From contig JBCAML010000006.1 in NCBI GenBank assembly GCA_038503075.1, positions 744,001 through 808,000 on the forward strand: a stretch of 64,000 bases of DNA, in the 5' to 3' direction. The position numbers were made by a program, and so were the translations under genes. Under the pieces are notes generated by a model, which was not told the origin of the DNA, made no database searches, and saw only the letters and a program-made list of their open reading frames with translations. Shown one piece after another: positions 12,131 to 59,844 of the stretch. The stretch comes from Gyromitra esculenta (Eukaryota > Ascomycota > Pezizomycetes > Pezizales > Discinaceae). Numbering within the stretch: position 1 is the stretch's first letter; each line of letters opens with the position of its first letter.

Positions 12131-12439
12131 GCTGGGTATTGGTTGTGGTATGGAAAAGCGGGGTATTTAAGCGGTGGGTTTTGTTCGTCTTTTGTCTTCT
12201 TCTTCTTCTTTCCTTAAGCAACGTTCTCGTTTACTTCTGTAGTTAATACTTTAAAACCCAATCTCGATTCAATCTCAGAATCATCATTGTCGTCGTTGCT
12301 GCACTTTATCTCGCCTTGAGATAAGCCCATTCCTAGAAACTGTAGAAACATTGTACCCTCAACCGATTCCTTCCTCGCCTAAGTAGCACTGCTCACCTTT
12401 GGGGATACTAAAGGGCTTAGAGAGACAGGGACCGTAAGA
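12131..12439 (+). mobile_element. LTR-A fragment (lacks first ~100 bp)
   Basis: Abuts LTR-C at 12130 and ends ACCGTAAGA at 12439. Promoter GGGGTATTTAAGCGG and AAGCAACGTTCTCG are present. The terminal hairpin is a variant (CCTTTGG..CTAAAGG). Confidence 0.85.
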
Positions 12440-15245: not shown

Positions 15246-15405
15246 TTTGTTTGAAGTGTGTAGCGTGATGTGTCATACAAGGGATTCAGCTCGTGCTTTG
15301 CAGGTGGCCAACTTCCCTATGACGACCGACTTCCAGGCAAGTTTCATTCGATATTTTTATTGTACTGCTAGAGCTGAAGGAGGTTTACAGAGCATCGTCT
15401 AATTA

Positions 15406-15814
15406 TCTCACGGTCGAGTCCCTCGTTAAGCCCTTCAGTATCCCTGAAGGTGAGCAGTGCTACTTAAACGAGGTAACAACACACTCAAGGAGTGCAGTGT
15501 TTCTACAAGTTCTACGAAAGGTATATCTCAAGGCGAGATAGTGGAGACGAAGTAACCAGCAACAGCGAGGGTTCTGAGGTAGAACCGAGATTGTATTCTA
15601 ACAGATACAGCAGAAGGTAACGAGAACGTTGCTTAAAGAGAGAAGAAGAAAAGAACAAAGAACGAGCAAAATCCATCATTTAAATACCCCGCTTTTCCAG
15701 CCAAACCCGATAACCAATAACAACCGAAACACAATAACATTATACAATAACCCGAAATCCATGACAACCAGCAAACTGAAACCTAACCCTATACTCAATC
15801 CTTAATCCGTGAAA
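15406..15814 (-). mobile_element. Solo LTR-A, left arm
   Basis: 409 bp with perfect target duplication AATTA (15401-15405, 15815-15819). Twin of 33602-34010. Confidence 0.9.
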
Positions 15815-15815
15815 A

Positions 15816-26961: not shown

Positions 26962-28973
26962 CATCCTCCGTCCCCGCTACAACCTCTTTGATTGAAAGTT
27001 CACCACCACCTTCTGCGTTGCAACGGCGTTACACACAGCCAACAGTCTTTAGCACTTCGGCTTCATTCCATTACCCCTCTTTTACAAACGATTTGGATCA
27101 TCGTTTACACAACAACCCACGGTCGCATTGCCTCCCAAAGGTAAAAGCAACATGTTTACACCCATATTCCCCCATCATCAAGTTGGGGGAACTCCAAACC
27201 CATTCGTTGCCTCCTCCTCTTCATCTGCGGCGGAACCAAGAACCCCCTCACCATTGAAAAGACAGAGAGCTGACACCTCTCCCCCATCCCCTCCTGTTTT
27301 TGGAAAGCCTACCCACTGGGCTGGCCTCTGGAATAAACCAGGGGAGGCCATTACCACTCACCTAGGCAGTGAACCAGCTTTTGGGTTCGACGTTTGCAAT
27401 GCTCTAGCTAGAGCTGACAAGTTCAACCTCCTCCACTTCCAAAAACTCCTTGACATGATACAGCTTCTACAAGGCGAAATCACCATCCTCAAGGAAGCAG
27501 CAAGCAAACCAGCTCCCGCACCTCTCTCAGACATGTTTCCAGAGTCTCCGACTTTGAGCAAACTAGAGCGTGACCACCTGCTGCTCACAGTAGGGAAGGC
27601 AGCGCCTTCAGAACCACCTGCACCTAGTGCTCCTCTTCCTCCTGCTCCTGCTATTGCTATCCAAGCACCTCCTCCTGCTCCAAAACCCCTGCAATGGGCT
27701 CAGGTGGCGGTCAGCAAACCCAAGAAAAAATCCCAACCAACAAAGACCAAACAGGCTGCCTCTGCACCTGCCCCTAAGACTCAGGTCTCCCCTCTCAACA
27801 TCACTCCCACCATGCGCACACGCCGTTTGATTGTCAAACGCGACGGCTCTCCCCTTTCCCAAGGGTCACCCACGGAACTCAGCGATAAACTCAACTCTGC
27901 CATTGGTTCCATCACCATCCAGTCTGTGGCAATAGACACACATTCCCAGAATGTGTCGTTGACGGTCATGAACAATATGTTTGCCAACACCCATTACAGG
28001 AAAGTTGGCCAATTTCTCCACATCATCCCTGGAGCTCGCTCCCTACACCTTGACAAACCATTGCACCAACTTGTTGTACATGGTATTCCTACTTCCATGG
28101 AGCCTGTTGCTATTCAGCAAGAGCTCTGCAACTTCAACCCCGGCCTCACCATGGACACACCCCCAAGATGGCTCACCCTACCAGAAAAACGAAGAGGAAA
28201 AACAGTTTCCTCCATCGTCATCACACTCTCTGGCCCCAAAGCTAATGAGATCGCTAATTGCACACGCCTTTCTGCTTTTTCCACCACTGTCCGAGCGGAA
28301 CGCAAACTTCGTTTTGGACCCTCCACCCAGTGTTCCCAATGTCACAAATTTGGACACCACACAAACAAATGTGCCAACCAACCATGCTGTCGCTGGTGTG
28401 TTGGACTTCATCCTACTGCAGCCCATACCTGCCCCACTCTCACTTGCTCAATTAAAGGCCGCCCCTGCTCTCACACCCTTGTTAAGTGTGTCAACTGCGA
28501 CGGACCCCATGAGTCACACCTGAACAGCTGCCCATCACGCCCTTCAAAGGCCTCACCGCCCCCTCCAGCAGATGACCAGATGGACCTTTAGGTCGCTTCA
28601 CCAATACTTTCCCAACCCCTACTAACTTTGATTGAAAACTTTTTCTGGCTACTCTCTGCTTCCTTTGTGGCTTTACTATGGACTTTCTTCTATGGTTCCT
28701 CATTGTTTTTCGGTTGTTGGCTGCAAGTCTCTTTACTCTCATAGGCATACACTGTCAACTTTCCCTGCACCTTTAAGTCGTTTTATCGCAGGAACATTGT
28801 CTTGTTCTTCTGGAAGTAATTGGTTCGCTTCTCTTTTGTGTTCTCTTTTGTTACCCAGGCGGATAAGGGTGTCTACTTGACGGGGATAGGTTTTTTGACT
28901 TCATAACCTTTGTGTTGCATAAGCGGTTTTGTACCTAGAAACAATAATCAAATGATTTAAACAAAAACAAAAA
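26962..28973 (+). mobile_element. ORF1-only LINE, copy 4 (full length)
   Basis: Starts CATCCTCCGTCCCC, ends in an A-rich tail, 2012 bp. A perfect 16-bp target duplication AATAGCTATTTACTAA lies at 26946-26961 and 28974-28989. This is the youngest-looking copy by its duplication, and again without RT. Confidence 0.92.
27152..28591 (+). CDS. LINE ORF1 (gag-like), copy 4
   Basis: Open from 27128, but the ATG used in copy 3 is TTG here, so the first available ATG is at 27152 (MFTPIFPHH), eight codons in. Same layout as copy 3: leucine-rich stretch, Pro/Ala/Lys-rich linker, HSQNVSLTVMNN core, knuckles CSQCHKFGHHTNKC, CRWCVGLHPTAAHTC and CVNCDGPHESHLNSC, ending DDQMDL. About 480 codons. The uninterrupted frame suggests either a very recent insertion or purifying selection on the source element. 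Confidence 0.8.
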   Translation: MFTPIFPHHQVGGTPNPFVASSSSSAAEPRTPSPLKRQRADTSPPSPPVFGKPTHWAGLWNKPGEAITTHLGSEPAFGFDVCNALARADKFNLLHFQKLLDMIQLLQGEITILKEAASKPAPAPLSDMFPESPTLSKLERDHLLLTVGKAAPSEPPAPSAPLPPAPAIAIQAPPPAPKPLQWAQVAVSKPKKKSQPTKTKQAASAPAPKTQVSPLNITPTMRTRRLIVKRDGSPLSQGSPTELSDKLNSAIGSITIQSVAIDTHSQNVSLTVMNNMFANTHYRKVGQFLHIIPGARSLHLDKPLHQLVVHGIPTSMEPVAIQQELCNFNPGLTMDTPPRWLTLPEKRRGKTVSSIVITLSGPKANEIANCTRLSAFSTTVRAERKLRFGPSTQCSQCHKFGHHTNKCANQPCCRWCVGLHPTAAHTCPTLTCSIKGRPCSHTLVKCVNCDGPHESHLNSCPSRPSKASPPPPADDQMDL

Positions 28974-31377: not shown

Positions 31378-31495
31378 CATCAGGAAAAGTCAAACAGCGT
31401 CCCTGGCAATATCTGAGAGTATCAGGGACTGCAGCACACGATTTGACCACCACCCGATCCTGAGGTTCATTGGTATGGGTCCCTGGGTGTCCTGT
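31378..31495. mobile_element. MITE-like fragment, right arm
   Basis: Matches the end of the 19464-20005 insertion in inverse orientation, then switches to LINE copy 5 at 31494-31495 with 2 nt of microhomology (GT). Confidence 0.7.
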
Positions 31496-32951
31496 CCATC
31501 TGGTCATCTGCTGGAGAGGGCGGTGAGGCCTTTGAAGGGCGTGATGGGCAGCTGTTCAGGTGTGACTCATGGGGTCCTTCACAGTTGACACACTTAACAA
31601 GAGTGTGAGAGCAGGGGCGGCCTTTAATTGAGCAAGTGAGGGTGGGGCAGGTATGAGCTGCAGTGGGATGAAGTCCAACACACCACTGACAGCATGGTTG
31701 GTTAGGACATTTGTTTGTGTGGTGTCCAAATTTGTGACATTGGGAACACTGGGTGGAGGGACCAAAACAGAGTTTGCGTTCAGCTCTGACGGTGGTGGAG
31801 AAGGCAGATAAGCGAGTTCGATTAGCGATCTCATTAGCTTTGGGGCCAGAGAGTGTGATGACAATAGAGGAAACTGTTTTCCCTCTTTGTTTTTCTGGTA
31901 GGGTGAGCCATCTTGGGGGTGTGTCCATGGTGAGGCCAGGATTGAAGTTGCAGAGCTCTTGCTGAATAGCAACAGGCTCCATGGAAGTAGGAATACCATG
32001 TACAACAAGTTGGTGCAATGGTTTGTCAAGGTGTAGGGAGCGAGCTCCAGGGATGATGTGGAGAAATTGGCCAACTTTCCTGTAATGGGTGTTGGCAAAC
32101 ATGTTGTTCATGACCGTCAATGACACATTCTGGGAATGTGTGTCTATTGCCACAGACTGGATGGTGATGGAACCGATAGCATAGTTCAGCTTGTCTCTGA
32201 GTTCCTTGGGTGTCCCTTGGGTAAGGGAAGTGCAATCGCGTTTGACAATCAAACAGCGTGTGCGCATGGTGGGAGTGATGGTGAGAGGGGAGATATGAGT
32301 CTTAGGGGCAGGTGCAGAGGCAGCCTGTTTGGTTTTTGCCGGTTGGGGTTTTCTCTTGGGTTTGCTGGCCGCCACCTGAGCCCATTGCAGGGGCTTTGGA
32401 GCAGGAGGAGGTGCTGGGATAGCAGCAGCAGGAGCAGGAGGAAGAGGGGCACTAGGTGCGGGTGGTTCTGGAGGCGCTGCCTTCCCTACTGTTAGCAGCA
32501 GGTGGTCACGCTCTAGTTTTCTCAGAGTTGGGGACTCTGGAAACATGTCTGAGAGAGGTGCGGGAGCTGGTTTGCTTGCTGCTTCCTTGAGGATGGTGAT
32601 TTCGCCTTGTAGAAGCTGTATCATGTCAAGGAGTTTTTGAAAGTGGAGGAGGTTGAACTTGTCAGCTCTGGCTAGAGCGTTGCAAACATCAAACCCAAAA
32701 GCTGGCTCACTGCCTAGGTGAGTGGTAATGGCCTCCCCTGGTTTATTCCAGAGGCCAGCCCAGTGGGTTGGCTTTCCAAAAACAGGAGGGGATGGAGGAG
32801 AGGTGTCAGCTCTCTGTCTTTTCAATGGTGAGGGGGTTCTTGGTTCCGCCGCAGATGAAGAGGAGGAGGCAACGAATGGGTTTGGAGTTCCCCCAACTTG
32901 ATGATGGGGGAATATGGGTGTGAACATGTTGCCTTTACCTTTGGGAGGCAT
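31467..32951 (-). CDS. LINE ORF1 (gag-like), copy 5, with fused tail
   Basis: 494 codons from ATG 32951, nearly identical to copy 3 (knuckles intact), with scattered differences such as RRLIVKHDG to RCLIVKRDC. After DQMD the deletion junction replaces the final residue and stop by RTPRDPYQ from the MITE fragment, ending at 31467. It is a small accidental C-terminal fusion downstream of all recognised motifs. Confidence 0.8.
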   Translation of the reverse strand: MPPKGKGNMFTPIFPHHQVGGTPNPFVASSSSSAAEPRTPSPLKRQRADTSPPSPPVFGKPTHWAGLWNKPGEAITTHLGSEPAFGFDVCNALARADKFNLLHFQKLLDMIQLLQGEITILKEAASKPAPAPLSDMFPESPTLRKLERDHLLLTVGKAAPPEPPAPSAPLPPAPAAAIPAPPPAPKPLQWAQVAASKPKRKPQPAKTKQAASAPAPKTHISPLTITPTMRTRCLIVKRDCTSLTQGTPKELRDKLNYAIGSITIQSVAIDTHSQNVSLTVMNNMFANTHYRKVGQFLHIIPGARSLHLDKPLHQLVVHGIPTSMEPVAIQQELCNFNPGLTMDTPPRWLTLPEKQRGKTVSSIVITLSGPKANEIANRTRLSAFSTTVRAERKLCFGPSTQCSQCHKFGHHTNKCPNQPCCQWCVGLHPTAAHTCPTLTCSIKGRPCSHTLVKCVNCEGPHESHLNSCPSRPSKASPPSPADDQMDRTPRDPYQ

Positions 32952-33252: not shown

Positions 33253-33601
33253 TGCGACAAAACTCTAAACCTTACCCCTTGACATATCACATGACACTGC
33301 CTTCCAACTACACTCACAACCTCATGCCCCATCACAACGCTAGCAACAATGGAACACTAACCAAGGCTATCGAGAAATCACTTAGTTTCTTAGATTGGGA
33401 TCAAAAAACCCTTCACGTTCCTTGTCTAGCACATGTAATCAATCTTGTGGTCTAGGATTTCATGAAAGAGCTTAAGATTATCTCAGAGCATGATGATATC
33501 GTTAAAACCTGGAATGATCCTCCTTCTAGAGTTCGAAAAGTAGAGGAAAAGTCATATGGATTCCCGAAAACACTCGCAAAGGTTTGCACTTCATTCTAAT
33601 T
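33253..33601 (+). pseudogene. hAT transposase fragment (middle part), right arm
   Basis: NNGTLTKAIEKSL, LHVPCLAHVINLVV*DFMKELK, ending LAKV at an intron-like donor. Same TAG as the left-arm twin, so the decay predates the duplication. Confidence 0.6.
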
Positions 33602-34010
33602 TTTCACGGATTAAGGATTGAGTATAGGGTTAGGTTTCAGTTTGCTGGTTGTCATGGATTTCGGGTTATTGTATAATGTTATTGTGTTTCGGTTGTTATT
33701 GGTTATCGGGTTTGGCTGGAAAAGCGGGGTATTTAAATGATGGATTTTGCTCGTTCTTTGTTCTTTTCTTCTTCTCTCTTTAAGCAACGTTCTCGTTACC
33801 TTCTGCTGTATCTGTTAGAATACAATCTCGGTTCTACCTCAGAACCCTCGCTGTTGCTGGTTACTTCGTCTCCACTATCTCGCCTTGAGATATACCTTTC
33901 GTAGAACTTGTAGAAACACTGCACTCCTTGAGTGTGTTGTTACCTCGTTTAAGTAGCACTGCTCACCTTCAGGGATACTGAAGGGCTTAACGAGGGACTC
34001 GACCGTGAGA
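33602..34010 (+). mobile_element. Solo LTR-A, right arm
   Basis: Twin of 15406-15814 with the same target duplication (TAATT in this orientation). Confidence 0.9.
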
Positions 34011-34170
34011 TAATTAGACGATGCTCTGTAAACCTCCTTCAGCTCTAGCAGTACAATAAAAATATCGAATGAAACTTGCCTGGAAGTCGGTCGTCATAGG
34101 GAAGTTGGCCACCTGCAAAGCACGAGCTGAATCCCTTGTATGACACATCACGCTACACACTTCAAACAAA

Positions 34171-36221
34171 ATGCCAAAAGTTAGGGTCAGGTGGGATTTG
34201 GAGAAAGAAGAACGGATATTTCTCAAGGGGTGAGGTTTTCGTCAAGCTCTCGGGTATCCCCCGAGATAAGCAGTGCTACTTGAACGAGAAACTAACAACG
34301 AGAGTGTATGCAAAGATTCCACAGGCTCTACAAATTCTTCGGATAATGAGGATCCGAAGACAGCGACAGCGAAGGATTACGAGGTGTAACCAAGGTTTGT
34401 ATTGTGAAATACAAGAGTGACTATAGAAGACATTGCTTAAAGAGAAGAGAAGAAAAAGTACAACAAGAGGGGAAAACTCTTCGCTTATATACCCATATTC
34501 CATCCTTCCGATGACAAACGTATGACTCATTGTAAAAGAAACCAAAGGAAACATAACAAACAACAATGAAATAAACCATCCAAACATCCATGCAGCTGGC
34601 CTTACAATGAAACAACCATCCATGAAAATATTCCATGTTATAAATGCACTAAAAGCCGACCCAAAACTATCAATCTGCAGTGCAGCCCAAAGATATGGTG
34701 TCCCCAGGTCTACCCTTACCGATAGATACAGTAAAAAAATGAAAGCAAGAAGACAAGCTCATACACATCAGCAGCATTTAACGGAAGAGGAAGAAATGGC
34801 TATGGAAGCATGGATTGGGCTGTTAGATGAGATTGGAATTCCACCAAGGCTCTCACATTTGTATGAAATGGCGACATCTATTATTCGGCAATGTACTACA
34901 CCTGATCAACCACCCTCAGAAATCCGAATAGCAGACCACTGGGTCTCATGCTTCCGAGACAGACATCCTGATATAGCCTTCCGATTTTCTGCAAGGGTTG
35001 ACAATGAGTGCGCAGCTGCTGGTAATCCTACAACTATAAACCAATATTTTAATCGATTGTCAGAGGTTAAAAGTCGATTCAAAATACTGCCGGACAATAC
35101 ATACAATGCAGATGAAAAAGGGTTTACTTTGGGCAAGCAGAACAGTCAAAAGTATTTGTTCGGCGCAAACGGAGAAATTCTCGTATATGTTAACTTGGAA
35201 ATCGAGAGTGGGTTTCAGTGTTGGAAATTGTATCAGCACGGGGAAAAGTTTTGCCAGCATATGTTATCTACAAAGGGAGAGCACACACTATGGGACAACA
35301 CGACTATGAGGAAAGAGAGGAAGCAACTTTTGGTCTCTCAGATTCTGGTTGGAGTAACGACAAGCACGGTTTTTGTGGCTCACTACGCATTTTGATCAAC
35401 TCACCCAGGAGACTCTTTCCACTACCAATTCAGAACATTGATTGTTGATACTTGATGGACACTCATCTCATCTAACGGTTGAGTTTATTGAGTATTGTCT
35501 ATCGAACAAAATACACTTGCTTTGTCTTCAGTCTCACTCAACTCATCTCCTACTGCCCCTGGATGTTGCGCTGTTTTCTCCGCTCAAACAGTATTACAGC
35601 AGCCTACTAGATCTTTGGACAAGAACACTCCCTTATGTATGAATGAATAAAGGCGACTTTTTCCCTCTTTTAATGAGAGCACGCAAATTTACGTTCACCA
35701 AGAAAAACATTCAATCTACTTTTGCTTCTACCAGTATCTCTCCTTTTATGCGCAACCAAGTTCTTCAAATCCTTCAACATTTTTCAACCACTTCAATATC
35801 CCAAACACCAATTTCCACCACCACTTCCACCACCCAAATACCTCCTACAAATACCAAAGATATTCAGCACATGAAAACTTTGGTTGACAGGTCTGACAAT
35901 TTGGAAGAAGTTAAACAGTTGTTTTGTCTATTGGCAACCGCAGCAGGTACTGCATTTGCGAACAGAGCGATTGCCCAAGAAACCATGCGACAACTTACCA
36001 CAGCGCAAAAGAAAAGCAAGGTCGATAGAAGGCAGATCAGAAAAGCGATGGTTATTTCCAGGAGCGATCTGGATAGGTTGCGCAAACTACATTTGGAGCA
36101 GGAGAAAAAAAAGGCAGAGGCAGCCCGAAGGAAAGCTAAAGCACATTCTAAACCTAAATTCTCTCGCAATCCTAGTGGCAAGCATATTCCACCATTAAAT
36201 AATAACTTTATCAGTCACTAA
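34171..36221 (+). pseudogene. Pogo/Fot1-type transposase (pogo-1), right arm, interrupted
   Basis: Original start MPKVRVRWDLEKEER at 34171, cut by LTR-B (34221-34627). The reading ATG at 34607 lies inside LTR-B (MKQPSMK) and continues in frame to 35395 through HTH, CENP-B-like domain and NADEKGF. The second and third catalytic Asp segments (LILDGHSSHL at about 35447, LPLDVALFSPL at about 35560) follow in a shifted frame. The C-terminal basic region is 35643-36221, identical to the left arm. One T fewer than the left arm in the run near 35372 changes the local frame. Confidence 0.75.
34221..34627 (-). mobile_element. Solo LTR-B, right arm
   Basis: Same site as the left-arm copy (AATAT/ATATT duplication) but closer to the LTR-B consensus, e.g. 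CTTTAAGCAATG where the left arm has CTTTGAGCCACG. Confidence 0.88.
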
Positions 36222-36974: not shown

Positions 36975-37283
36975 TCTTACGGTCCCTGTCTCTCTAAGCC
37001 CTTTAGTATCCCCAAAGGTGAGCAGTGCTACTTAGGCGAGGAAGGAATCGGTTGAGGGTACAATGTTTCTACAGTTTCTAGGAATGGGCTTATCTCAAGG
37101 CGAGATAAAGTGCAGCAACGACGACAATGATGATTCTGAGATTGAATCGAGATTGGGTTTTAAAGTATTAACTACAGAAGTAAACGAGAACGTTGCTTAA
37201 GGAAAGAAGAAGAAGAAGACAAAAGACGAACAAAACCCACCGCTTAAATACCCCGCTTTTCCATACCACAACCAATACCCAGC
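36975..37283 (-). mobile_element. LTR-A fragment, right arm
   Basis: Twin of 12131-12439, abutting LTR-C at 37284. Confidence 0.85.
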
Positions 37284-48171: not shown

Positions 48172-50012
48172 AACGCGGCTTTCTGTAATTGCAGAGGTGT
48201 TTTAGATTTTGCGGGCCATGCTGAATTGATTGACGTTGATAGAATTAACTTACAACATGACAGGGCTCTAAATCTACAGGTTTAATGCGGGGTACCTGAT
48301 TACATAATTGTCGATCACTTTCCCGGTGTGGATCACTTTCCCAGTGAAACACATAAGTACTGAAGAAGGAAAATGTTGATCCAAAGCTAAGTTTGTTGTC
48401 AGCTTCTTTGCCAAATGAAGCCACTGAACTGGACGCCCCCTAGATAAACTCTTCAAGGAAGGATATATTGCTGATAAATTTCCCAAAGAAATACTCGAAG
48501 CTTTCAGGAATAAAGATCAACAATCAAAAAAGATCAACTTCAGTGAGTGTACCGAAGAAAGCGGAAGGTTATGCTACCGTGGATGCATCTACGTCCCTGA
48601 CCTGGACCCTCTTCGACTGGAACTTATCCGAAGACATCACGACTTACCAGCAGCAGGACACCCAGGACAAGATAAAACGTTCGAACTCCTTTCTAGAAGT
48701 TTTTATTGGCCCAAAATGAGGGACTCAGTCGGTAGATACGTCCGCAACAGTCATATCTGCCAGAAAGCGAAGCCAGTTACCCAACGTACCCAAGGTGTCC
48801 TTCATCTGCTGCCCATTCCAAATCGTCCCTGGCAAGAGATCTCGATGGATTTCGTTACAGGACTTCCTGAGTCAGACAGCTATGATGCTATTATGGTTGT
48901 GGTCGACTGTTTATTGAAGATGAGACAACTAATTCCATGTAATACAACGGTTAACTCTCGAGATGTTGCAGATCTTTATCTACAACATATCTGGAAACTC
49001 CAAGGTTTACCTACTCACGTCACTTCTGACTGGGGCACTCAATTCACAGCCCATTTCTGGAAAGACCTTTGCAGTCGACTTGGGATACAAGCCCGGCTGT
49101 CTACGACCTTTCATCCTTAAACAGATGGACAAACGGAACGATTGAACGCCGTCATGGAGCAATATTTACGCTCCTATGTGCCCTATCAACAAGACGATTG
49201 GAGTAAGTGGCTACCAATGGCTGAGTTCTCCGCTAATAACCAGGAATCAGCTAGCACCAAAGTCTCCCCTGTCTTTGCCAATTACGGGTACCATCCATGC
49301 TTTGATACTACTCTCCTTCCCGTTCAGACAACCCGGCAAAGTCAGGATGCTGCTTTGTTTAGCCAAACCATGCAACAGCTACACGACTACCTACGAATGC
49401 AAATAAGGACCGCCCAAGATATCCAAGAAACAGCTACTAATAAACACCATACGCCAGCGCCAGCCTACCACGTCAATGTTCAAGTCTTTGTCTCAATGAA
49501 AAATATCAGAACTACACGTAAGGCCAAAAAGCTGGATTGGAAGTGGATGGGACCCTACCCGGTTAAGAAAATAGTGTCACCCTTCGCTTACGAGATTGAT
49601 CTCCCATCCTCTGTTAAATATCACCCTGTCTTCCACATTTCTTTGTTGAAGCCTGCTGTCAATGATACTCTTCCCGGACAAGTCATACATCCGCCTCCGC
49701 CTGTCATAGTCAATGAGGAAAAGGAATATTTGATTGAAAAAATCCAAGAACAGAGAATACATCGTGGACGGTTACAGTACCTTGTCGAGTGGACCGCATA
49801 ATCACATCCCACCTTGGAACCTGAGGAAGATCTTAACGAAACCTTGGCACTCGATAAGTTTTTGGCTACCCAGACTACTCTCATGGTCCGACACCTTTGT
49901 TAAGCCCTTCAGTATCCCTGAAGGTGAGCAGTGCTACTTAAGCGAGGTGTCAACACATTTGAATAGTGCGAGGTTTTCTACAGGTTCTACGAGAGGTCAG
50001 TCTCAAGGCGAG

Positions 50013-50423
50013 TTTCACGGATTAAAGATTGGGTATAGGGTTAGGTTTCGGTTCGATAGTTGTTATGGACTTTGGGTTGTTGTATAATGTTATTGTATTT
50101 CGGTTGTCATCGGTTATCGGATTTGCTAGGAAAAGCGGGGTATTTAAACAGTGGATTTCGCTTGTGTTTTATTCTTCCTCTCTTCTCTCCTTAAGCAATG
50201 TTCTCGTTTACCTTCTCCTTTAATTGTCGGAATAATACCTCGGTTCTACCTCAGAACCATCGCTGTCGCTGTTTACTCCACTGCACTTATCTCGCCTTGA
50301 GATAGACCCCTCATAGAACTTGTAGAAAACACTGCACTCTTTGAACGTGTTGTTACCTCGCTTAAGTAGCACTGCTCACCTTCAGGGATACTGAGGGGCT
50401 TAACGAGGAACACAACCGTGAGA
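50013..50423 (+). mobile_element. Nested solo LTR-A
   Basis: 411 bp, flanks GCGAG and GCAAG (one change). Confidence 0.88.
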
Positions 50424-50673
50424 GCAAGACAAGTGAAGCGAGACGGACAGCAACAGCGAGAGTTCTGAGGTAGAACTGAAATGGTATTGAATAGACACAG
50501 TAGAAGGTAAACGAGAACGTTGCTTAAGGAAAGAAGAAGAAAACAAAGAGCGCCCGAAATCCATCACTTAAATACCCCGTTTTATCCAAACAACAAACAA
50601 TACCTGACAACAACCGAAACACAAAGACATTATACTAACACCCGAAATCCGTCACAATCGCCAAGCGCGCTTC

Positions 50674-51082
50674 TTTCATGGATGGTTGCTTTCGTCGGCT
50701 CGTTGGATACAGGGGTATAAGGTTGCCATGTTGTGTTGTCGTTCTTTGTCTTTCTTTGGGTTTCCGTTACAATGAGTCAAGTCTTTGTCATCGAACGAGT
50801 TGGGATGTGGTATATAAGTGAAGGGATTTCCCCTCTTGTTGTACTTTTCCTTCTTCTTTCCTTAAGCAACGTTTTCTATTGTTTACTCTTGTATTCCACA
50901 ATACAAACCTCGGTTACACCTCGTAACCTGTCACTGTCGCTGTCTTCAAGTCATCTTGACTTGATCCACTCGTAGAGCCTGTAGAATCTCCGTGCATACT
51001 CTTGCCGTTGGTTTCCCACTCAAGTAGCACTGCTCATCTCGAGGGATACTCGAGAGCTTGATAAGAAACCTGCTCCTTGAGA
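50674..51082 (+). mobile_element. Nested solo LTR-B
   Basis: 409 bp, TTTCATGG..CTTGAGA, perfect target duplication GCTTC (50669-50673, 51083-51087). TATATAAG promoter and CTTAAGCAACGTTTTC. Hairpins GGTTAC/GTAACC, CAAGTC/GACTTG, CTCGAG/CTCGAG. Confidence 0.9.
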
Positions 51083-51171
51083 GCTTCTTATCCCAACACT
51101 TCGTTTTGATCCATGAAAACTACTGTTGCTCCTAGTGTTCACAGGAGCTCACGCTTGAAGAGGGGAGCTAC

Positions 51172-51577
51172 TTTCACGGATTCAAATGAGTAATGGGTTA
51201 GGGTTTGGTTATGTTGGTTTCAATGGAATATGGATTTCGGTATAATGTCTTTGTTGTTCGGCTAGTTTCTGTTAGGGATTATTGGAAGAAAAGCAGGGTA
51301 TTTAAGTGATGGATTTCGGTCGTTCTCGCTGTCTTCTTCTTTCTTTCCTTAAGCAACATTCTCGTTTCACTTCTACCTGTATTACTTTAATACTACCTCA
51401 ATTCTACCTCAGAATCCTCGCTGTCGCTGTTCACCTCACTGCACTTATCTCGCCTTGAGATAGACCACACGTAGAACCTGTAGAAACCCCGTACTGTCTA
51501 CTGCCTCCTATCTCATCTAAGTAGCACTGCTCACCTTCAGGGATACTGAAGGGCTTAGCGAGAAGGGATCCGTGAGA
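51172..51577 (+). mobile_element. 3' LTR (LTR-A) of gypsy G2
   Basis: 406 bp after GAAGAGGGGAGCTAC; the pol C-terminus GATFTD runs into it. Confidence 0.9.
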
Positions 51578-51599
51578 TTTCCAGGTTATTTCGGAGTGA

Positions 51600-51790
51600 G
51601 GGGAGGATGATGAGGCTTTGAATCGACCGCCTTCTGAAGTAGGCACTTTGGATGAGAACATCGATCAATTAAACGATGTTGAGCTGGAAGAGGACGAACT
51701 TCAGCTGGAAGTTAATAAAGAGGCCGAAGAGGTTGGTGGAATGGATGGAGGAAATAAAGCCAACGAGAGCTTTACATTTTTGGATATTGT
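51600..51790 (+). pseudogene. Short acidic ORF, unrecognised
   Basis: Reads EDDEALNRPPSEVGTLDENI, then DVELEEDELQLEVNKEAEEV and FTFLDIV, open from about 51602 after a TGA that could be CGA. Could be the C-terminus of a gene cut by gypsy G2; no family recognised. Confidence 0.3.
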
Positions 51791-52144
51791 GATTATTTGT
51801 ACTATAAGCTCTAGGATATCTATAGGTACACAGCTTAGAAGAAATGATAATAAGCCCTGGTGCGTCCTTAAAAGGACGCGCAAATGCTATAATCTATATA
51901 AAATAAGAGACTCTGCAGAGCTAGAGAGTAGAGAACAACGACTCCATAGAGAAATAGGGCCCAGCCGTGGTTCCTCCACAGAGGGATGATTAAGTTCTCA
52001 CTCCAGCGCGAGTTAGGGCAAAATCAACGAATTCTATAAAGATCAGAACGAAGAGTTCCGTCCTCGGCGAAATCTAGAGCATCGCTTAGCGCCTTAGTGA
52101 GGTCAGGATCTTGTTTATGCCTCTGCAATTCATAAGTTTCCTCT
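51791..52144. other. Unassigned stretch with minus-strand ORF end
   Basis: Contains a GCGTCCTT-AA-AAGGACGC hairpin near 51863. A minus-strand reading frame (about 52229-52024) gives LTKALSDALDFAEDGTLRSD before its stop; it overlaps the plus-strand target ORF in opposite direction, so at most one is likely to be real. Confidence 0.3.
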
Positions 52145-52634
52145 ATGGCCTCGGTCGCCTCAGTCACCTCCATGAAAGCCAGCGGGGAACATGAAATTTT
52201 TAGTGATGAACACGAGGGAGGGGGACAAATCTCAAGGAGTGAAATCTCATCAAGCCCTTTGGTATCCCCAAAGGCGAGCAGTGCTACTTGAATGAGAACT
52301 AATGACAAGAGTTTAGGCGACGATTCCACAGGCTCTATGACAAAAGGGAGTTATGATGACTCCGACGGCGAATCTACGTTGATGTAGTTGCGTGATAGGA
52401 AAAGAGGTATCACGGAGGCGACGAAGGATTATGTAGGAATCCTGGCTTGTATTGTAGGATACAAGTAGAGTGACAATAGAAGACGTTGCTTAAGAAAGAG
52501 AAGAAAGAAAATTACAATAAGAGGGGAACACCCTTCGCTTATATATCCATAATTCCTCCTTTCGCTGACCAACGTATGAGTCATTGCAACCGAAACCCAA
52601 AGAAATACAAAGAACAATAACAACACATAGCAAC

Positions 52635-53455
52635 TTTCACGGATTGAAGCGAGGAAGTCGGTTAGGATTAGGTTGGAGGATTGGGACGGATTTCGGTTAT
52701 TGGGAATAATGTCTTTGTATTTCGGTTGTTGTCGGATTGTTGTTGGTGTTACAGGAAAGCGGGGTATTTAAGTGAAGGATCTCAGTCGTTCTTGTTTCTC
52801 TTCTTCTTTCCTTAAGCAACGTTCTCGTTTACCTTCTTCTGTGATTATCGGAATACAATCTCGGTTCTACCTCAGAACCCTCGCTTCTCAAGGAGCGGGT
52901 TTCTTGTCAAGCTCTCGAGTATCCCTCGAGATGAGCAGTGCTACTTGAATGGGAAACCAACAATGAGAAAGTGTGCGAAGGTTCTACAGGCTCTACAATT
53001 GGTTTGAGTCGAGGTGATTCAAAGACAGCGACAGCGGAGGATTACAAGGTGTAACCGAGGTTTGTATTGTAAAATACAAGAGTGGACAATAGAAGACGTT
53101 GCTTAAGAGAAGAAGAAGGAAAAGTACAACAAGAGGGGGAATCCCTTCGCTTATATACCACATTCCAACTCGTTCGATGACAAAGACTTGACTCATTGTA
53201 ACGGAAACCGAAAGAAACACAAAGAACATCAACACAACATAATAACCTTGTACCCCTGTTCCTAGCGAACCCACGAAAGTAACCATCCATGAAATCGCTG
53301 TCGCTGTGAAACATCGCTGATACTTCGTCTTGAAGTATATCCTCCGTAGAACTTGTAGAAACATCGCACTCTTCGAACGAGTTAGTATCTCGCTCAAGTA
53401 GCACTGCTCACCTTCAGGGATACTGAAGGGCTTAGCGAGAGACTGAACCGTGAGA
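52635..53455 (+). mobile_element. Solo LTR-A inside LTR-B (second level)
   Basis: Target duplication GCAAC (52630-52634, 53456-53460). Split by LTR-B at 52886. Confidence 0.92.
52886..53294 (-). mobile_element. Solo LTR-B inside LTR-A (third level)
   Basis: 409 bp, target duplication TCGCT (52881-52885, 53295-53299), landing in the CTCGCTGTCGCTGT tract of LTR-A. Confidence 0.93.
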
Positions 53456-53579
53456 GCAACCATATACCCATACACCAAACTAACCAACGAAGCAACCATC
53501 CATGAAAACAAATGACTGACGATATCAAAGAAGAATACTCAATACTTCCTGCTCCTAAAAGATCACACACAGAGGTTAT

Positions 53580-53989
53580 TTTCACGGATTAAAGATTGGG
53601 GATAGGGTCAGGTTTCGGTTCGATGGTTGTTAAGGTTCGCAGGTCGCTATACAATGTTATTGTTTTTCGGTTGTTATCGGGTATTGGTTTTGTTAAGAAA
53701 AGCGGGGTATTTAAACGGTGGATTTTGCTTATGTTTTATCTTTTCTCCTTTCTTTCCTTAAGCAACGTTCTCGTTTACCTTCTCTTGTAATCGTCGAATA
53801 CTATTTCGGTTCTACCTCAAGAACCCTCGCTGTCGCTGTCCACTTCGCTGCACTTATCTCGCCTTGAGATAGACCCCTCGTAGAACTTGTAGAAACACTG
53901 CACTCTTCGAACGAGTTAGTATCTCGCTTAAGTAGCACTGCTCACCTTCAGGGATACTGAAGGGCTTAACGGGAGACTGAACCGTGAGA
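53580..53989 (+). repeat. 5' LTR (LTR-A)
   Basis: TTTCACGG..CCGTGAGA, no TG..CA. TATTTAAA at 53708-53715; predicted R start AAGCAACGT at 53760-53768; hairpins at 53808-53825 (GGTTC stem), 53855-53871 (TATCTC/GAGATA) and 53945-53963 (CCTTCAG/CTGAAGG). Confidence 0.95.
53708..53715 (+). promoter_or_regulatory. LTR-A TATA box
   Basis: TATTTAAA within GGGGTATTTAAAC, conserved in nearly all LTR-A copies, about 45 bp before the AAGCAACGT sequence that the priming site complements. Confidence 0.7.
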
Positions 53990-53991
53990 TT

Positions 53992-54000
53992 ACGTTGCTT
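53992..54000 (+). promoter_or_regulatory. Candidate self-priming primer binding site
   Basis: ACGTTGCTT, two bases after the LTR, exact reverse complement of AAGCAACGT (53760-53768) at the expected RNA start. Known precedent: Tf1 and related fungal chromoviruses prime with the folded-back 5' end of their own RNA. Confidence 0.65.
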
Positions 54001-54192
54001 CCACCATCTACACCTTCTACCGCAGAGAACCACACGTTTCATGGGAATCATCACTCAGATTCGTCAATCCATTCTAAACATCTTCCCCTGCCTAACACTG
54101 CGAAAACCACAACCTCTGGTTGAAGTCATTCCCGAGTGGCTGGACCAAGAGTACTTACGCAAGAACTCTTCCCCTCGACCGACACCAACATC

Positions 54193-55515
54193 ATGAGCTC
54201 ACCCGCTCCCGCTGGCCCTTCCACTGAAGGAGCCGCTGTCGCCACCCCACGCTTTCCCACCAGAGAAGCCTTCGCACAAGCACTGAGAGAAGACACTGCT
54301 GAGCTGTACAATCACCTCAGAGACCTCTACCAGGCCTTGGAAGACCAAATCGATGTCCTCCAAGAAAACGAAAGAGAGACCGAGGTGAAACTTGGCATCG
54401 CAAAAATTCAAACTGACAACGCTCTTCGTCATGCCGCGGAACAAGATAATCGGGTCAACGAGACCGCTAATCTGATTGCCCGGCTACGACAAGAGCGAAA
54501 CGAAGCTCGATCCGCTAACCAGGCCCCCCCGGCTCCACCCAATCTTACCGCCACCCCACCGCCACCATCACATTCCCACCGCTCGGAACGGATGCCAGAC
54601 CCAGAAAAATTCGATGGGTCCCGAGCCAAACTCCCTGGTTTTGTACTTCAACTGCGTTCCAAGCTCACGGTCAATAAAGACCGCTTCGCCGACGAGACCA
54701 CAATGATTTTATACACGATCAATCGCCTGGAAGGAGCAGCCTTGGAACAAGTTCGCCACACCGTCCTCCCTTCTGGCCTCACCACCTGGACCAGCGCAGA
54801 ACACCTAATTACTGCCCTGGAAACTGCTTTCGGAGACCCTGACCCCACTGGCACAGCCCGACGAGAGCTTCACCAACTTCGACAGGGAAAACGCGACTTC
54901 TCCGCATACCTAGCCGACTTCCAGAGAATCATGGGGCAACTCAATTTTGACGAGAACTCAAAGATGGATGCTCTAGAGCACGGTATGTCAGAAGAACTGA
55001 AAGAAGCCATGGTATTTGCACCTGTTGCCCCGGCCAACCTTCAGGAAATGATCATAACCCTCACTCGATTGGACAATCGGATTCGAGCTCGCAAGGCAGA
55101 AAAACGAGGCAACGCCCGTGATAACATGGGACAATTCAGTGCCCCTGCTGCCTTCACCCCCGCCTCTTCCTTTACCCCAGGCGGACTAGCTCCCATGGAT
55201 CTCTCTTTCGGCCGTACCAGCAACCTCTCTCGCCCCCCTCAGGATCAAAGATATACGTTGGTTAACGGAAGAAGAAAGCTTTCGGAGGAGGAGAAACAGT
55301 GGCGACGATCCACAGGAAAATGTATGTTTTGCGCCGCCCCGGACCACTCCTACGCCAACTGTCCTTCTGCTCCCAAAAAACCTACAATGAGAGGAGCCCT
55401 CACCGCCCCCCCCGCCAACCGTACACCCCCGGCCTCCTCCCTGCCACCACCACCACTCCCTCCTCAGTTTTTCGCGTTAGAATCAGCAGACTCCTCCAAC
55501 GAGTCTTTAAACTAG
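54193..55515 (+). CDS. gag: Gag polyprotein of the complete gypsy element
   Basis: 440 codons from MSSPAPAGPSTEGAAVATP (54193; the G3 gag starts at the same place, so the upstream in-frame ATG at 54136 is not preferred). Residues about 30-115 are coiled-coil-like (QALEDQIDVLQENERETEV), about 135-275 retrotrans_gag capsid (MPDPEKFDGSRAKLPGF to MDALEHGMSEELKEAMV), and a single CCHC knuckle CMFCAAPDHSYANC near residue 377. Ends TAG at 55513-55515. The pol frame (-1) overlaps its last ~215 nt. Gag forms the particle and binds RNA. Confidence 0.93.
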   Translation: MSSPAPAGPSTEGAAVATPRFPTREAFAQALREDTAELYNHLRDLYQALEDQIDVLQENERETEVKLGIAKIQTDNALRHAAEQDNRVNETANLIARLRQERNEARSANQAPPAPPNLTATPPPPSHSHRSERMPDPEKFDGSRAKLPGFVLQLRSKLTVNKDRFADETTMILYTINRLEGAALEQVRHTVLPSGLTTWTSAEHLITALETAFGDPDPTGTARRELHQLRQGKRDFSAYLADFQRIMGQLNFDENSKMDALEHGMSEELKEAMVFAPVAPANLQEMIITLTRLDNRIRARKAEKRGNARDNMGQFSAPAAFTPASSFTPGGLAPMDLSFGRTSNLSRPPQDQRYTLVNGRRKLSEEEKQWRRSTGKCMFCAAPDHSYANCPSAPKKPTMRGALTAPPANRTPPASSLPPPPLPPQFFALESADSSNESLN

Positions 55516-57605
55516 TTCAACCAAGGCCGAACAGTGACCCCGCCTTGGTTCCTATTTCTTTACCTTTGTCAGCATTTTCTATTTCAGGTTTTTCAGTATC
55601 GGATATGTGTATGGAGGATCAGTTGGATGGGGAGCACTTTGTTATATCATGTAGCATCTCCCATAACAATAAAATCATTAAAACCCACGCACTATTGGAT
55701 ACCGGAGCCTCAGGATTTGCTTTCATAGATAAAGAATTCGCGAGTCACCACTCTTTACCCCTCACCTCTTTAAAAATACCTCGACAGCTTGAAGTCATCG
55801 ATGGTCGCCCTGTCGCCTCAGGAGACATTACCCACATCACTAACCTCAACTTGTCCATTCAAAACCACCGAGAACAAGCCCCCTGCTTTGTGACCCGACT
55901 GGGCCACTACCCCTTAGTCTTAGGGATACCATGGATGAACCATCATGATGTCCAGCTTCATTTCGCCGACAAACGCATTGAGTTTAACTCTAAACTCTGC
56001 ACTACCCACTGCGCCCCTCATTCCCCCGTGGTATCTACTCCATCGATTCCCGCTCCTCCAAGATTAAACATGTCTTTTATCAACGCCGCCAGCTTCAGAA
56101 TCCTTACTCGAAAACGTTCCCTGCAAGCTTATGCGATGTCCCTCTACGAAATTAATAAAATCCTAGAGGAGAAAACAACAAAAGAAGAATGGAGAGCGAG
56201 GATCCCAGCCGAATATCATGACTTCTTGGATATGTTTGACAAAAAAAAAGCTCAAGGTTTATCCCCACGTCGATCTTATGACCATAAGATACAACTCCAA
56301 GATGGGAAAGAAGCCCCATTCGGCCCTCTGTATGGAATGTCTCGGGAAGAGCTAATAGTCCTGAAAAAATACATTGAGGATAACCTTGAAAAAGGTTTCA
56401 TCCGAGCTAGCTCGTCACCTGCCGGATCCCCTGTCCTTTTTGTCAAAAAGGCTGACGGCTCCCTCCGCTTATGTGTAGACTATCGAGGCCTTAATGCGAT
56501 TACAGTCAAGGACCGCTATACCTCTCCCCTTATCCGAGAAACACTTGATAGACTAGCAAAAGCACAATGGTATACCAAACTCGATCTCCGCGATGGTTAC
56601 CACCAAATACGCATTGCTGAAGGGGATGAATGGAAAACCGCCTTCCGTACCCGATATGGTCTCTATGAATATCAAGTTATGCCATTCGGCTTAACCAATG
56701 CGCCTGGCACTTTTCAACGCTTTGTCAATGACTGCCTGAGAGAATACCTAGATATTTTCTGCACCGCCTACCTCGATGATATCCTTATCTATAGCGATAC
56801 CTTCGAGGAACACCAAGTCCACGTCAGAAAGGTGCTCCAAACCCTTAAGGAAAACGACATCTTGCTAAAGCCGGAGAAATGCGAGTTCCAAGTACAAACT
56901 ACCAAGTATCTAGGACTCATCCTTACCCCTGACGGAATCAAGATGGACGAGGAAAAACTCAGAGCCGTACGAGAATGGGGTACCCCAAAGAGTGTTAAAG
57001 ACGTACAAGCCTTCTTAGGGTTCGCCAATTTCTATCGACGATTTATCCTGGGGTTCTCAAAACTTGCCTCTCCACTTACTGCGTTGACAAAGAAAGGGGT
57101 TAGCTTTGAATGGACCGTCAAAGCAGACATTGCCTTCGAGAATTTAAAATATGCCTTTACCACAGCACCCATTCTAATCCATTTTGATCCTGATAAGAAG
57201 ATTATAGTCGAAACTGATGCTTCGGACTTTGTGTCTGGAGGGGTGCTATCTCAATACGACGATGCCGGTATTTTACACCCTGTAGCCTTCTTCTCCAAGA
57301 AGCACTCGCCAGCCGAATGCAACTATGAGATCTATGACAAGGAGCTACTGGCTATTATCAGAGTATTCGAGGAATGGCGCCCGGAACTCGAGGGCTCGAA
57401 ACATCCTATCGACGTTATCAGTGACCACAAGAACCTCGAATATTTTATGAGTACTAAGCAGCTCAACCGTCGTCAAGCCAGATGGGCCGAATACTTATCT
57501 CGTTTCGATTTCATAATTACCTACCGACCAGGCAAAGAAGGAGGAAAACCAGACGCATTAACTCGGAGATCAGGAGATCTCCCCAAGGAAGGGATGAAAG
57601 ATTAG
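55299..57605 (+). CDS. pol: Pol part 1: protease, reverse transcriptase, RNase H
   Basis: In the -1 frame relative to gag; a run of six A's at 55375-55380 in the overlap is a possible shift point (the AAA AAA codons are not in the standard X XXY YYZ phase). Protease HALLDTGASGFAFID (about 55690-55733), RT with [34 protein letters not shown] and [10 protein letters not shown] (about 56770-56800), RNase [19 protein letters not shown] and [12 protein letters not shown]. The frame runs out at GDLPKEGMKD* because one G is missing at about 57591-57593: related copies at 38856 and 45131 have AAGGGGATGA. Confidence 0.92.
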   Translation: MATIHRKMYVLRRPGPLLRQLSFCSQKTYNERSPHRPPRQPYTPGLLPATTTTPSSVFRVRISRLLQRVFKLVQPRPNSDPALVPISLPLSAFSISGFSVSDMCMEDQLDGEHFVISCSISHNNKIIKTHALLDTGASGFAFIDKEFASHHSLPLTSLKIPRQLEVIDGRPVASGDITHITNLNLSIQNHREQAPCFVTRLGHYPLVLGIPWMNHHDVQLHFADKRIEFNSKLCTTHCAPHSPVVSTPSIPAPPRLNMSFINAASFRILTRKRSLQAYAMSLYEINKILEEKTTKEEWRARIPAEYHDFLDMFDKKKAQGLSPRRSYDHKIQLQDGKEAPFGPLYGMSREELIVLKKYIEDNLEKGFIRASSSPAGSPVLFVKKADGSLRLCVDYRGLNAITVKDRYTSPLIRETLDRLAKAQWYTKLDLRDGYHQIRIAEGDEWKTAFRTRYGLYEYQVMPFGLTNAPGTFQRFVNDCLREYLDIFCTAYLDDILIYSDTFEEHQVHVRKVLQTLKENDILLKPEKCEFQVQTTKYLGLILTPDGIKMDEEKLRAVREWGTPKSVKDVQAFLGFANFYRRFILGFSKLASPLTALTKKGVSFEWTVKADIAFENLKYAFTTAPILIHFDPDKKIIVETDASDFVSGGVLSQYDDAGILHPVAFFSKKHSPAECNYEIYDKELLAIIRVFEEWRPELEGSKHPIDVISDHKNLEYFMSTKQLNRRQARWAEYLSRFDFIITYRPGKEGGKPDALTRRSGDLPKEGMKD

Positions 57606-58675
57606 CACACCAGAGTCAAGTGGTGCTAAAGAAGGAGAACATTGATCCCAAGATAAGTTTGTTGTCGGCTTCTTTGTCAAATGAAGCCGCTGAACTGGAC
57701 GCTCCCCTGGAAAAGCTTTTTCTAGAAGGATATATCGCTGACAAGTTTCCGGAGAAAATACTCGCAGCGCTGAGGAACAAAGACCAACAGTCAAAGGAGA
57801 TCACTTTAAGTGAATGTACCAATGAGAATAACCGATTATGCTATCGAGGAAATCTCTACGTACCCAACTTCGATCCTCTTCGCCTAGAGCTTATCAGAAG
57901 ACACCATGATGCCCCTGCCGCAGGTCACCCAGGACGAGATAAAACCTTCGAATTAATAAGTAGAAGCTTTTACTGGCCAAAGATGAGAGAATCTATCGGT
58001 CGATATGTACGTAACTGTCATACATGTCAAAAAGCCAAACCAGTCACCCAGCGCACGCAAGGAGTCCTCCGCCCGCTACCTATCCCAAATCGTCCCTGGC
58101 AAGAGATCTCAATGGATTTTGTTACAGGCCTTCCAGAATCCGAGGGCTACGATGCTATTTTAGTCATCGTAGATCGTTTGTCAAAAATGCGACATTTGAT
58201 CCCCTGTAATACTACAGTCAATTCACGGGACGTCGCTGACCTATATTTACAACACGTCTGGAAGCTTCATGGGTTACCTACGCACATCACTTCTGATCGA
58301 GGCACGCAGTTCACAGCCCATTTCTGGAAGGAACTTTGCAAACGCCTGGGAATTCAAGCCCGAATGTCTACCGCATTTCATCCAGAGACCGACAGACAAA
58401 CGGAAAGACTGAACGCAGTCATGGAGCAATACCTGCGCTCTTACGTATCTTATCAACAAGGAGACTGGAGTAAATGGTTACCGATGGCAGAATTCTCTGC
58501 TAACAACCAGGAATCAGCTAGTACCAAAGTCTCGCCTTTCTTTGCGAACTATGGCTATCACCCTCGTTTTGATACTTCTATTATTCCTCCTATAATGATT
58601 GCCCAAAGCTTAGATTCTTCTACCTTCGCAACTATAATGCAAGACTTATACGACTATCTCCGAACGCAGATATGA
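57606..58675 (+). pseudogene. pol: Pol part 2: integrase zinc and catalytic domains, out of frame
   Basis: Continues in the shifted frame: ERLAHQSQVVLKKENIDP, HHCC zinc region (RRHHDAPAAGHPG..CHTCQKAK), core DFVTGLPES, TSDRGTQFTAHFW and ETDRQTERLNAVMEQ giving the D,D,E triad. Ends at TGA 58673-58675, where the related copy at 49400 has AGG (Arg); CGA to TGA is the simplest route. Confidence 0.88.
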
Positions 58676-59206
58676 ACCGCCCAGGATGTCCATGAAACCG
58701 CTATCAATAAGCACCGAACCCCCGCCCCAGCATACCAAGTCGACGATCAAGTGTTTATATCGATGAAAAATATCCGAACTGTTCGCAATGCTCGGAAACT
58801 TGATTGGAAATGGATGGGACCCTATCCTGTAAAGAAAATAGTGTCGCCTTTCGCGTATGAAATCGACCTTCCACCCTCAGTCAAGTATCATCCTGTTTTC
58901 CACGTCTCACTTCTTAAACCCGCTGCCAATGACCCTCTTCCAGAACAAGTTATTCCCCCTCCGTCACCGATTGTTGTTAACGAACAAGAGGAATATTTTA
59001 TTGAAAAAATCCTCTACCAACGGATGCACCATGGACAACAACAATACCTGGTCGAATGGACTGGCTATGCTCACCCTACCTGGGAACCCGCCAAAGATCT
59101 TCAGGATACGACTGCCCTCGATGTATTTTTAACTACGGCCACTACTATCAATCCTAAGGTTCGCAGGAGCTCACGCTTGAGACGGGGGGCTACTTTCACG
59201 GATTAA
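58676..59206 (+). pseudogene. pol: Pol part 3: GPY/F motif and chromodomain
   Basis: Same frame as part 2 after the nonsense codon. WKWMGPYPVKKIVSPFAYEI (GPY/F module), VKYHPVFHVSLLKP, chromodomain EEYFIEKILYQRM..QYLVEWTGYAHPTWEP, basic tail VRRSSRLRRGATFTD. The stop TAA (59204-59206) lies inside the 3' LTR. Chromodomains of such integrases direct integration to modified histone tails. Confidence 0.88.
59179..59189 (+). promoter_or_regulatory. Polypurine tract
   Basis: GAGACGGGGGG, then CTAC, then the 3' LTR. G1 and G2 have AGAGGAGGGG and GAAGAGGGGAG at the same place. It is also coding sequence of pol. Confidence 0.6.
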
Positions 59207-59603
59207 AGATTGGGGATAGGGTCAGGTTTCGGTTCGATGGTTGTTAAGGTTCGCAGGTCGCTATACAATGTTATTGTTTTTCGGTTGTTATCGGGTATTG
59301 GTTTTGTTAAGAAAAGCGGGGTATTTAAACGGTGGATTTTGCTTATGTTTTATCTTTTCTCCTTTCTTTCCTTAAGCAACGTTCTCGTTTACCTTCTCTT
59401 GTAATCGTCGAATACTATTTCGGTTCTACCTCAAGAACCCTCGCTGTCGCTGTCCACTTCGCTGCACTTATCTCGCCTTGAGATAGACCCCTCGTAGAAC
59501 TTGTAGAAACACTGCACTCTTCGAACGAGTTAGTATCTCGCTTAAGTAGCACTGCTCACCTTCAGGGATACTGAAGGGCTTAACGGGAGACTGAACCGTG
59601 AGA
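59194..59603 (+). repeat. 3' LTR (LTR-A)
   Basis: 410 bp, identical by eye to 53580-53989; followed by GTTAT. Confidence 0.95.
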
Positions 59604-59844
59604 GTTATGTATAGTAGACCGTTACAGCCTAAACCAAAAAGAATGGTAGTAATGGATGATGACCGCAACAGCAGCCAGTCAAATATAAGAGATAAAGTCA
59701 GGCGGGTTGAAGGAGATCAACCAAGCAAGGTGACAGGGCTGAAGGCCATAACAACCTATGGTAGGAGGAAAGGAAGAGAATAGTAACAGAATAAGCTTTG
59801 ATTATAACACTAGAATGATACTAGGAAAGATAACTGTATATAAT

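Follow-up and report, generated by a model that had tools for sequence, protein, structure and literature searches.

A candidate self-priming leader with a covarying hairpin array in a Ty3/gypsy chromovirus of Gyromitra esculenta

Self-priming by an LTR retrotransposon has reportedly been demonstrated in Tf1. In elements other than Tf1, self-priming was assigned by inspection or from predicted folds, according to the accessible part of the sources, PMC10085805 among them. In the accessible text of PMC10085805, the arrangement named the pretzel comprises three duplexes, one between the primer and the primer-binding site (PBS) and two between PBS-adjacent and LTR sequence, and the LTRs of all seven fission yeast elements end in CA. 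The primer match of Tf1 is given as 11 nt in the accessible text of PMC7175516.

The window is the whole 64,000-nt stretch of the Gyromitra esculenta genome analysed here, and it carries, at 53580-59603, an LTR retrotransposon with the leader under study, flanked by a perfect 5-bp duplication, GTTAT (Table 1). The order of pol, with reverse transcriptase-RNase H ahead of integrase, is of the Ty3/gypsy type, and the best solved relatives of the reverse transcriptase and integrase frames are the Ty3 structures 4ol8 and 7q5b, respectively. The GGGGGG tract ahead of the 3′ LTR is presumably the polypurine tract. Canonical TG...CA ends are absent from these LTRs, which run from TTTC to GAGA, with boundaries fixed by 5-bp target-site duplications: LTR-A is TTTCACGG...CCGTGAGA and LTR-B is TTTCATGG...CTTGAGA. 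TG...CA ends are usual in the Tf1/sushi group and do not define it. The ends could be scored in 121 LTR copies, 55 of which have flanks that match at 5/5 positions. A PBS follows in 33 of these 121 copies, among them 1 of the 55 with perfect flanks, which leaves 88 copies, 54 of them with perfect flanks. A search of the genome (47.1 Mb in 23 contigs) with the LTR gave 1800 first-look candidates, 40 of which were scored, and a search with the reverse transcriptase gave 833, of which 150 were scored, all 150 exceeding the family cut-off. Therefore, the element family is large.

Table 1. Coordinates in the window of the element, its leader and the paired segments of the leader.
Feature	Position	Strand	Remarks
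Target-site duplication GTTAT, left side	53575..53579	+	right copy 59604-59608
5′ LTR	53580..53989	+	410 bp; ends TTTCACGG...CCGTGAGA, not TG...CA
TATA-like box TATTTAA	53708..53714	+	
Presumed RNA 5′ end and candidate self-primer TTAAGCAACGT	53758..53768	+	9 nt (53760-53768) complementary to PBS
Candidate U5 duplex, left arm UCUC	53769..53772	+	pairs with 53986-53989
Hairpin H1	53808..53825	+	6 bp
Hairpin H2	53854..53872	+	6-7 bp
Duplex 3, left arm GUAGAA-CU-UGUAGA	53880..53893	+	inside LTR
Stem P4, left arm	53928..53932	+	5 bp; base of H3; right arm 53965-53969
Hairpin H3	53945..53963	+	7 bp; loop GGAUA
Stem P4, right arm	53965..53969	+	
Candidate U5 duplex, right arm GAGA	53986..53989	+	LTR end
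Primer-binding site ACGTTGCTT	53992..54000	+	2 nt past LTR end
Duplex 3, right arm UCUACA-CC-UUCUAC	54007..54020	+	outside LTR, just past PBS
gag reading frame	54136..55515	+	Pfam Retrotrans_gag and DUF4939 in 54184-55515
Protease / reverse transcriptase / RNase H frame	55299..57605	+	Pfam RVT_1, RT_RNaseH, RVP_2
Integrase frame	57482..58675	+	Pfam Integrase_H2C2, rve
Integrase C-terminal part, Tf2-type SH3 domain and chromodomain	58751..59206	+	Pfam SH3_Tf2-1 PF24626, Chromo PF00385
GGGGGG tract and spacer CTAC preceding 3′ LTR	59184..59193	+	
3′ LTR	59194..59603	+	410 bp; identical to 5′ LTR

Several other features of the window were seen in passing. The product of the WD40 gene at 20802-21722 shares 77% identity with a protein of Morchella importuna, the best match that carries a name, and 84% with an unnamed one, which makes a host in the Pezizomycetes very probable. 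Nested chains of LTR-A and LTR-B, each copy with its own duplication, occupy 50000-53500 and are also found at loci L051 and L055. The LTRs at 15405-15815 and 33601-34011 (82.4% each to the query) and those at 12134-12439 and 36975-37280 (76.8%) form pairs in inverse order, and the frames 13194-13772 and 35643-36221 look identical; thus, part of the window seems to have been duplicated in inverse orientation. Four long frames that resemble one another (8144-9166, 16465-17928, 27128-28591 and 31467-32951), the last three with CCHC-like motifs by eye, probably encode ORF1-type proteins of a non-LTR retrotransposon.

The first-pass annotation had described three LTR hairpins whose stems change on both sides, and the hairpins H1, H2 and H3 and all of the stem variants listed for them were located in the window. 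The H1 variants GATTCT/AGAATC and GGTTAC/GTAACC are at 29363 and 50912, the loops of the H2 variants start at 2875, 29422, 41165 and 50953, and those of the H3 variants are at 3512, 15157, 29510 and 51044 and, on the minus strand, at 52263. The loops GGAUA of H3 and ACCUC of H1 are nearly constant and the stems vary, with G-U pairs present in the stems of the LTR alignment; the loop ACCTC assigned to H1 is that of most copies, and the copy at 53808 has the 6-nt loop ACCTCA instead. An additional stem below H3, designated P4, was not on the original list.

For a quantitative evaluation, 195 profile matches in about 295 kb of the same genome were reduced to 131 near-complete LTRs without N and then to 126 distinct copies. 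The statement that the hairpins are found in every well-preserved LTR copy proved too strong: of the 126, 85 carry all three stems without a missing pair, and in 116 of these distinct near-complete copies none of the three stems lacks more than one pair. The H2 pair 53857:53869 is a standard pair in 126/126 copies, with six pair types, and the loop-closing pair of H2 (53860:53866, outside the stem count) is kept in 83/126. Stems taken from single-sequence folds at about 53773-53792, 53831-53852 and 53878-53910 were rejected, many of their pairs being lost across copies, as was a candidate stem TGTA..AATAC near 53786-53802, in which the letters are conserved and the pairing, by eye, is inconsistent.

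In a scan of all column pairs of the 126 LTRs, the two highest-ranking pairs were 53857:53869 in H2 and 53950:53958 in H3, both of which scored higher than any of 60 simulations under the tree-based null. In H1, the best pair ranked fifth, and its all-pairs E of 23 means that the scan taken alone gives no significance for this hairpin. Changes of both partners on the same branch were then counted on a tree built from the U3 part only and compared with 2000 simulations: there were 15 in H1, 42 in H2 and 21 in H3, against null means of 3.25, 7.17 and 4.39, with 0/2000 simulations as high in each case, and 4 in P4 against a mean of 0.93 (17/2000 as high). The two-sided events that kept the pair numbered about 94 on the U3 tree, compared to 1-4 for slid partners, and 60 on a tree made without the helix columns, compared to 0.6-4. 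Among events that started from a paired state on the U3 tree, 57/160 on terminal branches were breaks, as opposed to 7/53 on internal branches (Fisher P 0.0018), and this concentration of breaks on terminal branches fits a structure that is maintained as long as elements are mobile and decays once they have inserted. A lack of covariation above a phylogenetic null had been named at the outset as the result that would speak against selection on RNA structure; such covariation was found, strongest in H2 and H3, and with compensatory changes exceeding both the tree-based and the slid controls, selection across the two LTR families is supported.

The segment upstream of the hairpins was examined in the same copies. 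In 103 of the 126 LTRs, the distance from the start of a TATWTAA motif to AAGCAACG is 50-54 nt; the other 23 have no TATWTAA 20-90 nt upstream or no recognisable primer. The exact primer AAGCAACGT is present in 98/126. Judging from this TATA-to-primer spacing, transcripts would start upstream of the hairpins, at or near 53758. In the predicted fold of 53757-54010 (z -3.2, with 0/200 shuffles as stable), AAGCAACGU (53760-53768) pairs with ACGUUGCUU (53992-54000), and all three hairpins are enclosed.

Leaders that continue past the LTR were collected as 55 contexts; two of these lacked a duplex-3 arm recognisable with up to 4 substitutions and were dropped, leaving 53. The 9-nt primer:PBS duplex is paired in 97.5% of cells in these 53 leaders, which were chosen by near match to primer and PBS, so that this conservation is inflated and a sample picked by reverse transcriptase is the fairer one. 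The primer:PBS duplex is nearly invariant in the 53 leaders, with no two-sided change and no same-branch co-change. For this second sample, 20 stretches were chosen through their reverse transcriptase, with no regard to the LTR; in 16 of these the PBS was present as GTGAGATTACGTTGCTT behind the LTR end, 13 of the 16 having the exact AAGCAACGT 150-300 nt upstream. An exact site behind the LTR end is lacking in four stretches: that of L089 is degraded, L092 has a site with one mismatch that follows other sequence, the copy in L098 is inverted, and L099 has none. The same PBS follows a different LTR end in the LTR-B elements L053 and L065, and the PBS of L063 has one change.

Two further observations were made by eye in individual leaders. 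In L090 (RT-picked), near 740-860, a GAGA simple repeat breaks the H1 region and the primer lacks one base; H2 and the PBS are intact. Directly after the PBS, some leaders carry a stretch, TAGCTCAGCGGTATACTC ... GTGTTCAAACCCC, that resembles tRNA A and B boxes (in element orientation, near 717-1030 of L103 and near 707-1020 of L106; on the minus strand of L077, at 2307-2564). L103 and L106 also repeat the PBS about 280 nt farther downstream, together with the duplex-3 arm in its usual form. Neither ARAGORN nor Rfam found a tRNA in these two loci. In Rfam searches of loci L103, L106, L001 and L053 with E up to 1, the leader matched no family, the sole match, a plant miRNA model on L053, being below the gathering score.

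On either side of primer:PBS, LTR sequence is complementary to sequence next to the PBS. The candidate U5 duplex (UCUC:GAGA, 4 bp) adjoins the PBS and is paired in 95.8% of cells in the 53 leaders, with the outer pair lost in nine and no two-sided change. Duplex 3 has 12 bp, in which GUAGAACUUGUAGA (53880-53893) is complementary to UCUACACCUUCUAC (54007-54020), and since the right arm falls outside the segment closed by primer:PBS, duplex 3 and primer:PBS form a pseudoknot. Of the two pseudoknot loops, the one bounded by the U5 duplex and duplex 3 holds H1 and H2, and the other holds P4/H3. Duplex 3 is paired in 96.8% of cells across the 53 leaders, with two-sided changes in 5 of its 12 pairs (20 cells, compared to 3.6 in shuffles) and six same-branch double changes against 0.59 expected (0/5000 simulations as high). 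The variant GUAGAG/CUCUAC is found in LTR-B elements and also in the A-type element L025, GUAGGA/UCCUAC in a third group, GUGGAA/UUCCAC in L079 and UGUGGA/UCCACA in L078. When the right arms were swapped among elements, pairing dropped in all 10,000 permutations. By a strict column-shuffling null in the 53 leaders, no duplex-3 pair was significant (best about 0.4), few duplex-3 columns being variable, and its further pair types were not above shuffles (66/500 reached the count).

The eight helices were also evaluated together in the 53 leaders. Of 2585 pair cells, 97.3% were standard pairs, as opposed to 34.8-47.5% in slid controls, and 146 cells were changed on both sides, compared to a shuffle mean of 30.1 and 2-17 in slid controls. 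There were 17 pairs with a two-sided change, against 12.5 in shuffles (3/500 reached this number), and the further pair types, 42 against 40.5, were not above shuffles (134/500). By the column-shuffling null, the four best-scoring of 38,781 column pairs all fell within the structure, and one pair only, in H2, had an all-pairs E <0.05; among the 49 proposed pairs alone, four were <0.05, two in H2, one in H3 and one in H1. In the branch test on the 53 leaders, 0/5000 simulations were as high for H2 and for duplex 3 and 62/5000 for H3; H1 (371/5000) and P4 (1997/5000) were not significant in this set. The 53 leaders were also folded without constraints as far as the PBS, with a helix counted when at least 60% of its pairs formed; these folds contained primer:PBS in 51, H1 in 47, H2 in 52, H3 in 49, P4 in 47 and the U5 duplex in 40.

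The leader appears to share the three-part plan of the published pretzel and is therefore taken as a self-priming leader. We consider it very probable that it is the self-priming leader of a Ty3/gypsy chromovirus, in the form of a pseudoknot that carries a hairpin array in its loops. This reading is based on the pairing potential and its conservation, the covariation of H1, H2, H3 and duplex 3 (that of P4 being weaker), the TATA spacing and the anatomy of the element. The first-pass annotation left the choice between priming, packaging and translation open, and the larger structure points to priming because of the primer:PBS complementarity, the short candidate U5 duplex and the covarying pseudoknot duplex beyond the PBS.

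The explanation that competes most directly with a priming role concerns the hairpins themselves, which might mainly serve as a signal for packaging or dimerisation, with Gag recognising their constant loops, and adjoin the self-priming structure but be independent of it. Nearly constant loops (GGAUA in H3 and ACCUC in H1) on changing stems are typical of loops that are read by a protein or RNA, and the primer:PBS fold has no need of hairpins; against this, the priming pseudoknot has the hairpins inside its two loops, and both LTR families have retained hairpins and pseudoknot together. We regard this alternative as possible but not favoured. That a tRNA primes the element and the leader/PBS complementarity is accidental seems to us scarcely credible. 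The TGG of a PBS pairs with the CCA end of a tRNA, and the PBS ACGTTGCTT is without TGG; in addition, the 9-nt match is at the places expected of a primer and a PBS, and this in both LTR families.

Two other proposals dispense with selection on RNA structure. Template switching by reverse transcriptase within quasi-palindromes could copy one arm into the other, and the 40 two-sided against 6 one-sided paired changes on internal branches of the U3 tree are what such concerted correction gives. However, duplex 3 also co-changes, and 113 nt separate its two arms, of which only one belongs to the LTR; breaks cluster on terminal branches, as they would if insertion put an end to selection; and G-U pairs occur. 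Template switching is therefore an improbable explanation. Short palindromes in LTRs can bind proteins as DNA sites, and the arms might on that ground be palindromic sites for promoter or integration factors rather than RNA structure. This is very unlikely, since stems that change while loops stay are the reverse of a binding palindrome, the hairpins are 3′ of the TATA box and the presumed start, and duplex 3 spans the LTR and the internal region.

For the self-priming leader, we infer the RNA start, the cleavage of the primer and the function of the hairpins as follows. The RNA would start at or near 53758, and its first nucleotides, AAGCAACGU, would fold back onto the PBS ACGUUGCUU just past the LTR. 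Two flanking duplexes would lock primer:PBS in place, UCUC with the GAGA of the LTR end and, as the pseudoknot, GUAGAA..UGUAGA with UCUACA..UUCUAC. A cut by the element's own RNase H, behind the paired segment, would free a short leader fragment to prime minus-strand DNA synthesis without a tRNA. Most likely, the hairpins would compact the stretch of approximately 220 nt that separates primer from PBS and so bring these together, and their constant loops may be offered to Gag or reverse transcriptase. It is conceivable, and we suggest it tentatively, that this is a distinct subtype of self-priming, in which the pseudoknot loops bear evolving hairpins with fixed loops that are read by Gag or reverse transcriptase, packaging and self-priming are checked by one fold, and a GA-ended LTR family has filled the genome.

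The many diverging copies in one genome provide evolutionary evidence for individual duplexes, including the pseudoknot duplex that joins the LTR to the internal region, and they constitute a natural mutational series for which pairs matter. The copies also bring to light the hairpins in the pseudoknot loops, which may serve a function of their own.

In comparison with known systems, the leader has a short candidate U5 duplex with PBS-side sequence, as has the U5-IR stem-loop of retroviruses and Tf1 as generally understood; unlike that stem-loop, the U5 duplex here is only 4 bp and without covariation. Retroviral integrase removes a terminal dinucleotide, and the 2-nt gap that separates the PBS from the LTR would fit such a removal. 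The U5-IR stem-loop appears in the accessible part of PMC10085805 as a cited title.

The primer match here is 9 nt, unlike the 11 nt of Tf1 in the accessible text of PMC7175516, and the LTR ends in GAGA, unlike the CA of the seven fission yeast elements in that of PMC10085805. This leader also has a covarying three-hairpin array with a basal stem in its loops, for which the accessible parts of the published descriptions contain no counterpart, and no report of a hairpin array was found in the accessible text of the literature searched. Tj1 of Schizosaccharomyces japonicus belongs to another host lineage, and the accessible part of its description has no hairpin array. In Tf1/Tf2 and the Tf1/sushi chromoviruses, as here, a primer at the presumed RNA 5′ end pairs with a PBS beside the LTR (PMC10085805 and PMC7175516, accessible parts), and in Tf1/sushi elements, as apparently here, the two duplexes flanking primer:PBS join PBS-adjacent and LTR sequence (PMC10085805, accessible part). 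A chromodomain and a Tf2-type SH3 integrase end are likewise shared with this group. The Gyromitra element would thus work like Tf1/sushi elements, being likened to them by leader plan and domains.
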